Assembly (NCBI GenBank): GCA_002842035.1
Contig: PHBP01000007.1
Location: 62,001-126,000 of the forward strand
DNA length: 64,000 nucleotides
Source: Candidatus Cloacimonetes bacterium HGW-Cloacimonetes-2
GTDB lineage: Bacteria > Cloacimonadota > Cloacimonadia > Cloacimonadales > Cloacimonadaceae
Direction of reading: 5' to 3'
Shown here piece after piece: positions 63,282 to 64,000 of this stretch; the stretch's first letter is position 1, and the number at the start of each line of letters is the position of its first letter. The notes beneath the pieces were generated by a model that saw only the letters and a list, made by a program, of their open reading frames with translations, did no database searches and was not told the origin of the DNA. The translations under genes and the position numbers were made by a program.

Positions 63282-63358
<77 letters not shown>

Positions 63359-63644: not shown

Positions 63645-63674
63645 TTGACAAAAGATACTGCCTGATGAAAAGAT
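63645..63674 (+). promoter_or_regulatory. Candidate promoter of leader and lipoprotein gene
   Basis: TTGACA at 63645-63650 is followed 17-18 bp later by a weak -10 (AAAAGA/AAAGAT). A transcript would start near 63680, just before the structured leader. Confidence 0.45.
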
Positions 63675-63681
63675 GTTTCAA

Positions 63682-63770
63682 CGCCGAGGCTGAAGACCTA
63701 AACTATTTGCATGGTCCCAGCCCGATAGGGTTTAACCGGAAACGGTTAGGCCTCCCTTTGGAAAGGCGGG
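63682..63770 (+). ncRNA. Structured 5' leader, riboswitch-like, class not recognised
   Basis: Helices that can be read directly: closing stem CGCC/GGCG (63682-63685 with 63765-63768), GAGGC/GCCTC (63686-63690 with 63750-63754), GACC/GGTC (63695-63698 with 63713-63716), CCC/GGG (63721-63723 with 63728-63730) and TAACCG-GAAA-CGGTTA (63733-63748) with a GNRA tetraloop. The closing stem thus encloses three hairpins, a multi-helix junction. It lies between a promoter-like site and a lipoprotein start 50 bp further. It does not match the conserved cores of c-di-GMP-I, TPP, SAM-I, cobalamin, FMN or glycine riboswitches as I know them. Confidence 0.5.
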
Positions 63771-63820
63771 TAGTAAATCTTTATGCTGCTCTGCCTTCAT
63801 ACTAAAAAATGGAGGTATCA

Positions 63821-64000
63821 ATGAAGAGGATCACCAGTATCCTTCTCATCCTTGTCCTTGCCCTGCTGGTTTTTGCCTGCAGCGAAAAGGACGACGACCC
63901 CACAGACGTAAAAGTTTGGGGATATCAACTCGATCAATTCATCACCAAAGCTGCCGTGGCAGCAATCACCGATGGCGCTGCTGATACGCTTGATCTGCGC
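63821..64000 (+). CDS. Lipoprotein, 3' end outside window
   Basis: The frame is open to the edge of the window (60 codons). ATG 63821 follows a strong GGAGGT. The signal peptide (ILLILVLALLVFAC, Cys about 20) has a lipobox and is followed by an acidic linker SEKDDDP, typical of exported lipoproteins. The visible mature part (VWGYQLDQFITKAAVAAITDG) does not allow a family assignment. It is preceded by the structured leader. Confidence 0.75.
   Translation, partial: MKRITSILLILVLALLVFACSEKDDDPTDVKVWGYQLDQFITKAAVAAITDGAADTLDLR

Follow-up and report, generated by a model that had tools for sequence, protein, structure and literature searches.

BtuG is a surface lipoprotein of cobalamin uptake, and both BtuG and the receptor BtuB are under control of a cobalamin riboswitch. 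For the pterin cofactors of molybdenum (Mo) and tungsten (W), cells are generally thought to make the cofactor themselves, and the question of how it crosses membranes has been raised (PMC9793310). The targets described for the Moco/tungsten-cofactor riboswitch family (Rfam RF01055) are genes for Mo/W transport, for pterin synthesis and for enzymes, without mention of TonB (Regulski et al. 2008, PMC2408646). In the same study, RNAs of this family that lack the P3 stem were found to accompany tungsten-using organisms, and sensing of a tungsten cofactor by these forms was proposed based on this correlation (PMC2408646).

Here, we describe a leader RNA found near the 3' end of a 64,000-nucleotide stretch of DNA (referred to as the window) from a Cloacimonadota bacterium. 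The RNA itself is known; what is new is what the riboswitch controls, i.e., a lipoprotein and a TonB-dependent receptor in genomes without genes for cofactor synthesis. A search of Rfam using cmscan, as suggested in an earlier sequence-only reading that had considered the motif to be unrecognised, returned the known family RF01055 at window positions 63670−63784 with a score of 59.3 bits (gathering cut-off 36), spanning the full model (1−135). Membership of the leader in this family is near certain. The sole other match of any size was to the LOOT RNA (RF03000; window 63695−63770), at 23.1 bits compared to a cut-off of 46.4. Like the leader, the LOOT RNA harbors the CCUAAAC/GCAUGG loop and a GAAA hairpin, which suggests that it uses the same tertiary contact, and the resemblance is likely that of a shared tertiary motif only. 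A tRNA gene (RF00005, 74.3 bits) is located at 63282−63355 and ends about 300 nt 5' of the riboswitch. The promoter-like site noted upstream in the sequence-only reading was not recovered, as a scan of the + strand returned no sigma-70-like site; a TTGACA is nevertheless found at 63645−63650.

The leader is more stably folded than its shuffled counterparts, with a minimum free energy (MFE) of −52 kcal/mol compared to −37.1 ± 3.3 kcal/mol (z −4.5), in agreement with the structured leader predicted earlier. In the Rfam alignment (all features are on the + strand) the three enclosed hairpins of that prediction correspond to P2, P4 and P5. The closing stem had been drawn in two parts, one of which, CGCC (63682−63685) paired to GGCG (63765−63768), is P1; the other, GAGGC/GCCTC, does not hold, as GGC opens P2 and GCCT closes P4. 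Helix P2 (63688−63722) is formed by 63688−63698 paired to 63713−63722 and includes a tetraloop-receptor-like loop composed of CCUAAAC (63697−63703) and GCAUGG (63709−63714), a receptor described in PMC2408646. The site of P3 is occupied by the short junction CGAUA (63723−63727), followed by the P4 hairpin (63728−63753), which carries the GAAA tetraloop (63739−63742) already seen in the sequence-only reading, and by the P5 hairpin (CC/GG, 63754−63761). The GNRA (GAAA) tetraloop on P4 and the receptor in P2 that are required of RF01055 members are thus both present, while the absence of the P3 stem is the hallmark of the P3-less "Tuco" subtype. Because the leader is P3-less, it is assigned to the subtype for which sensing of the tungsten cofactor was proposed, and, as judged from the sequence, its ligand is most likely the tungsten (or molybdenum) pterin cofactor.

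Conservation of this architecture was assessed in 40 homologous leaders that precede the same gene family, which were aligned using MAFFT and onto which the Rfam pairs were projected. The covariation check, also suggested earlier, was strongly positive with double-sided changes in 20 of the 29 pairs; such changes are found in 8 of 10 pairs in P2 and in 7 of 11 in P4, P1 also covaries, and P5 displays a CG to UA double change. The number of double-change cells was 180, compared to 63 in shuffled and no more than 75 in slid versions of the alignment. This is strong evidence that the helices P1, P2, P4 and P5 are maintained via covariation in the homologues. The junction at the P3 site is at most 6 nt long in 92 of 95 scored related leaders.

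The strand that follows P5, AAGGCGGGUAG (63763−63773), carries the 3' strand of P1 as well as an anti-sequestor strand, as identified in forced folds. Further downstream, folds and a comparison of 50 leaders revealed an anti-Shine-Dalgarno element, CUGCUCUGCCUU (63786−63797), which can pair either with this switching strand or with the Shine-Dalgarno region. In the MFE fold and in the P1-forced fold, a sequestor hairpin formed by UGCCUUCAU and AUGGAGGUA (63792−63817) encloses GGAGG (63811−63815), i.e., the strong ribosome binding site that had been noted in front of the lipoprotein start. A competing switch segment had been proposed for this region, which was correct as to the location but not as to the rival partner, which is the anti-Shine-Dalgarno element rather than CCTTT. 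The P1-forced and anti-sequestor-forced folds are equal in energy (−53.9 kcal/mol each); the probability that the ribosome site is unpaired is about 0.00−0.04 in the MFE and P1-forced folds, and the site is partly open in the anti-sequestor fold. In 48 of 50 leaders of the lipoprotein family both partners overlap on one anti-Shine-Dalgarno element. Duplexes that beat dinucleotide shuffles at p 0.05 are found for the anti-sequestor in 39 of the 50 leaders and for the sequestor alone in 24. A transcription-terminator platform was dropped because a terminator scan of 63250−64000 revealed no terminator-like site. The equal energies of the rival folds, together with the overlapping partners, support a translational OFF switch, where the direction is deduced from the thermodynamic and comparative analyses. 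Binding of the cofactor would favor formation of P1, which would leave the anti-Shine-Dalgarno element free to pair with GGAGG and turn translation off. In the absence of the cofactor this element would instead be occupied by the 3' strand of P1, which would expose the ribosome site.

The lipoprotein gene (family c0) starts at 63821, reaches the end of the window at 64000 and continues to L004:6628, where its stop codon is overlapped by one base by the gene of a TonB-dependent receptor (L004:6628−8514). The proposal that a cis-regulatory, ligand-binding RNA controls a surface lipoprotein is supported, but it was incomplete as regards the target, given that the receptor follows. The receptor harbors the plug domain PF07715 (82.4 bits) and the barrel domain PF00593 (67.8 bits), both above cut-off, and comes after the lipoprotein in most of family f1. 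The lipobox Cys of the lipoprotein is invariant in 24 relatives. Its fold is well modeled (pLDDT 88), yet no relative was found in the PDB, and no family or sequence relative was recognised among known families. In a scan of species genomes the lipoprotein family was restricted to Cloacimonadota, where one match is to an assembly labelled "bacterium". A total of 54 of 60 copies are located directly 3' of an RF01055 match; of the remaining six, one is a tandem copy and most are cut off where a contig ends. A match below the cut-off (33.7 bits; G101:C25:20179−20305) is also found directly 5' of a lipoprotein copy (20534), i.e., the Rfam cut-off misses some true RF01055 members in this phylum.

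In Cloacimonadota RF01055 was found in 75 of 125 genomes. The genes 3' of 105 of these riboswitch loci were grouped into clusters, which encode the lipoprotein (53 loci), the S component of an ECF transporter (18), P5C dehydrogenase (15), aldehyde:ferredoxin oxidoreductase (AOR, a Mo/W-pterin-dependent enzyme; 8) and assorted other targets, including TupA and a WtpA-like protein. A second RF01055 riboswitch of the source genome (L005:6363−6484; G000:C2:154362−154483) resides 66 nt before a gene for L-glutamate gamma-semialdehyde dehydrogenase (L005:6551−8173; TIGR01236, 808 bits). There are 15 such pairs across the phylum, possibly reflecting a swap to an NAD enzyme while the cofactor-dependent aldehyde oxidoreductase is idle. 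An unusual target is found at L112 and L123 (G103:C31:3929−4052 and G104:C93:7979−8101), where RF01055 precedes a gene of about 597 amino acids (cluster c34) with ferredoxin and iron-hydrogenase-like segments.

The riboswitch-led ECF operons of the relatives are composed of the S component (PF09819/TIGR02185-like), a protein referred to as c4, sometimes c5 and c6, two ABC ATPases (A and A') and the T component (PF02361), and the lipoprotein is often the first gene. In one of these operons (G049) the TonB receptor is found inside the operon, in the order riboswitch, ECF S, c4, A, A', TonB receptor and T. A further operon (L158), on a contig that ends before the riboswitch position, starts with the lipoprotein and the ECF S component, followed in order by c4, a gene for a phosphodiesterase/nucleotide pyrophosphatase, c6, A, A', the TonB receptor and T. 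In three cases MobB accompanies the ECF operon. The source genome harbors a complete S-c4-A-A'-T cassette away from the lipoprotein locus; no riboswitch was found at this cassette, and Pfam does not detect its copy of c4.

Of 20 c4 proteins, 15 match the Oxidored_molyb family, and c4 has no Cys at what we take to be the metal-ligand position. A structural model of c4 is poor overall (mean pLDDT 45) and usable in the N-terminal domain alone, the best PDB matches of which are the pterin-binding PruR proteins (probability 0.99−1.0). The sequence profile likewise matches PruR, together with a sulfite:cytochrome c oxidoreductase. A kinship between c4 and the lipoprotein was judged too weak (hhalign probability 12%).

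AOR is encoded in 83 of the 125 genomes, most of which are incomplete assemblies, while profile searches identified MoaC in three, MoeA in two, the MoaA C-domain in two and MoaE in none, not even in the two genomes that harbor MoaA, MoaC and MoeA. In control genomes each of the biosynthesis searches was positive in 11 of 14, and all five AOR-positive controls have MoaC. The source genome (99.55% complete) encodes two AOR-family proteins, each with a D..G(V/F)D motif, which point to use of tungsten-type enzymes, and searches for MoaA, MoaC, MoaE and MoeA in this genome found none, i.e., the host needs the cofactor but is without recognisable genes for its synthesis. A divergent pterin pathway could nevertheless exist in these genomes. 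A subset of the genomes also harbors full-length molybdopterin oxidoreductases, some of which (e.g., frames of about 900 residues at G089:C60, G093:C11 and G087:C52) contain one in-frame TGA and are probably selenocysteine formate dehydrogenases; molybdopterin biosynthesis genes were not found in the genomes that harbor them.

Presence of the lipoprotein is linked to that of AOR. In family f1 their presence or absence agrees in 42 of 46 genomes; permuting the labels within genera gave agreement this high in 1 of 100,000 trials. In three genera the two vary in step. Of the AOR-positive genomes that lack MoaC, 69 of 80 encode at least one of the lipoprotein and the ECF S component, as compared to none of the three that have MoaC, all of which lack both (p 0.004, in a test that ignores relatedness). 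There are also 11 AOR-positive genomes with neither MoaC nor lipoprotein/ECF S component, and five riboswitch-bearing genomes of family f1 without AOR.

Cells that use the cofactor without a pathway to make it, a cofactor riboswitch, a receptor and lipoprotein, c4, a phosphodiesterase and an ECF transporter are best explained together by uptake of the finished cofactor. We thus propose, with a probability of roughly 0.6, that the leader is a P3-less Moco-family OFF switch governing a lipoprotein and a TonB receptor that help to import the finished Mo/W-pterin cofactor. In this scenario the surface lipoprotein and the TonB receptor would take up the cofactor of other cells across the outer membrane, the PruR-like c4 may bind the pterin in the periplasm, the phosphodiesterase could trim nucleotide forms of the cofactor, and the ECF transporter, which in the source genome is encoded elsewhere than the riboswitch locus, would import the finished cofactor for use by AOR in cells unable to synthesise it. 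The identity of the transported substrate as the finished cofactor appears somewhat favored by these data. By the same token, Cloacimonadota would largely be molybdopterin auxotrophs that scavenge the finished Mo/W-pterin cofactor via a riboswitch-controlled route, a view to which we lean with some reservation.

A different function would follow if the lipoprotein and receptor, under the same riboswitch, import W or Mo as an oxyanion or a metallophore complex and the cell synthesises the pterin via an unrecognised pathway. The riboswitch indeed controls metal transporters elsewhere, also in this phylum, where in the MoaC-positive genomes G092 and G058, the two that also harbor MoaA and MoeA, it leads a tungstate-type transporter, in G092 within TupABC-MoeA-MoaA-MoaC-MOSC-Mog and in G058 a WtpA-like one. 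Furthermore, the source genome has no recognisable ABC transporter for tungstate or molybdate, and its two examined solute-binding-protein matches belong to a phosphate-type locus and an unrelated locus; PF13531 was rejected as a marker of molybdate/tungstate binding because it is non-specific (98 of 125 genomes, only four above 90 bits). However, MoaC and MoeA, for which we know of no substitutes, are missing from nearly the whole phylum while readily detected in G058 and G092, the linked c4 resembles pterin-binding proteins, and a metal importer would have no need of the operon phosphodiesterase/nucleotide pyrophosphatase. Import of the metal is for these reasons unlikely, even if it deserves serious consideration. 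Still less probable is import of a precursor that lacks the metal (cyclic pyranopterin monophosphate or molybdopterin), with the metal being inserted inside the cell. The MoaD/MoeB-like genes that adjoin AOR in two genomes without MoaC, as well as MobB at three of the ECF operons, would fit such a route, but 123 of 125 genomes lack the metal insertase MoeA and all of them lack MoaE.

Among solved structures the receptor is closest to BtuB, which takes up cobalamin (E 3e-23), such that the receptor might import an unrelated substrate (a corrinoid, siderophore or peptide) and merely be regulated by the cofactor. This explanation is very improbable in view of the TIGR01779 score, 144.9 bits as compared to an equivalog cut-off of 599.7, which speaks against a BtuB vitamin B12 receptor, and in view of the tight co-occurrence with AOR and the linkage to the c4/ECF operons. 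The idea that the leader belongs to a new class of RNA, unrelated to the riboswitches already described, is refuted by a match to the full RF01055 model at 23 bits over the cut-off.

If import of the finished cofactor is correct, the system would be the first in bacteria to import a Mo/W-pterin cofactor; a search of the open-access literature found no report of its uptake via TonB receptors or ECF transporters in bacteria, nor of any Mo/W-pterin ECF transporter. A conserved gene set marked by a riboswitch, found with enzymes but without the pathway, offers concrete candidate transporters, and the riboswitch doubles as a genomic marker for the remaining pathway genes. Cloacimonadota are common in digesters, and the cofactor would be another one traded, beside cobalamin, in anaerobic communities.

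In comparison to the described Moco/Tuco riboswitches (PMC2408646), the leader has the same P1, P2, P4 and P5, GAAA tetraloop and receptor, the same missing P3 and a platform that acts on translation by enclosing the ribosome site, but it differs in its targets, a lipoprotein of the outer membrane and a TonB receptor, and in residing in genomes without pterin synthesis genes. The c4 protein is similar to the PruR pterin-binding proteins, which have a sulfite-oxidase-like fold without the metal-ligand Cys, in its N-terminal model and its profile, and differs in its length of about 300 residues and its location in an importer operon. As in known ECF transporters, a full S-A-A'-T set is found both in the source genome and in the relatives, while the riboswitch leading it in the relatives and the link to presence of AOR are specific to the present case. 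The closest functional parallel is presumably BtuB/BtuG, which also combines a cofactor riboswitch, a BtuB-like TonB receptor, a surface lipoprotein and a separate inner-membrane importer; here, in contrast, the riboswitch is of another class, the receptor scores far below the BtuB cut-off and the lipoprotein shows no detectable relationship to known families.
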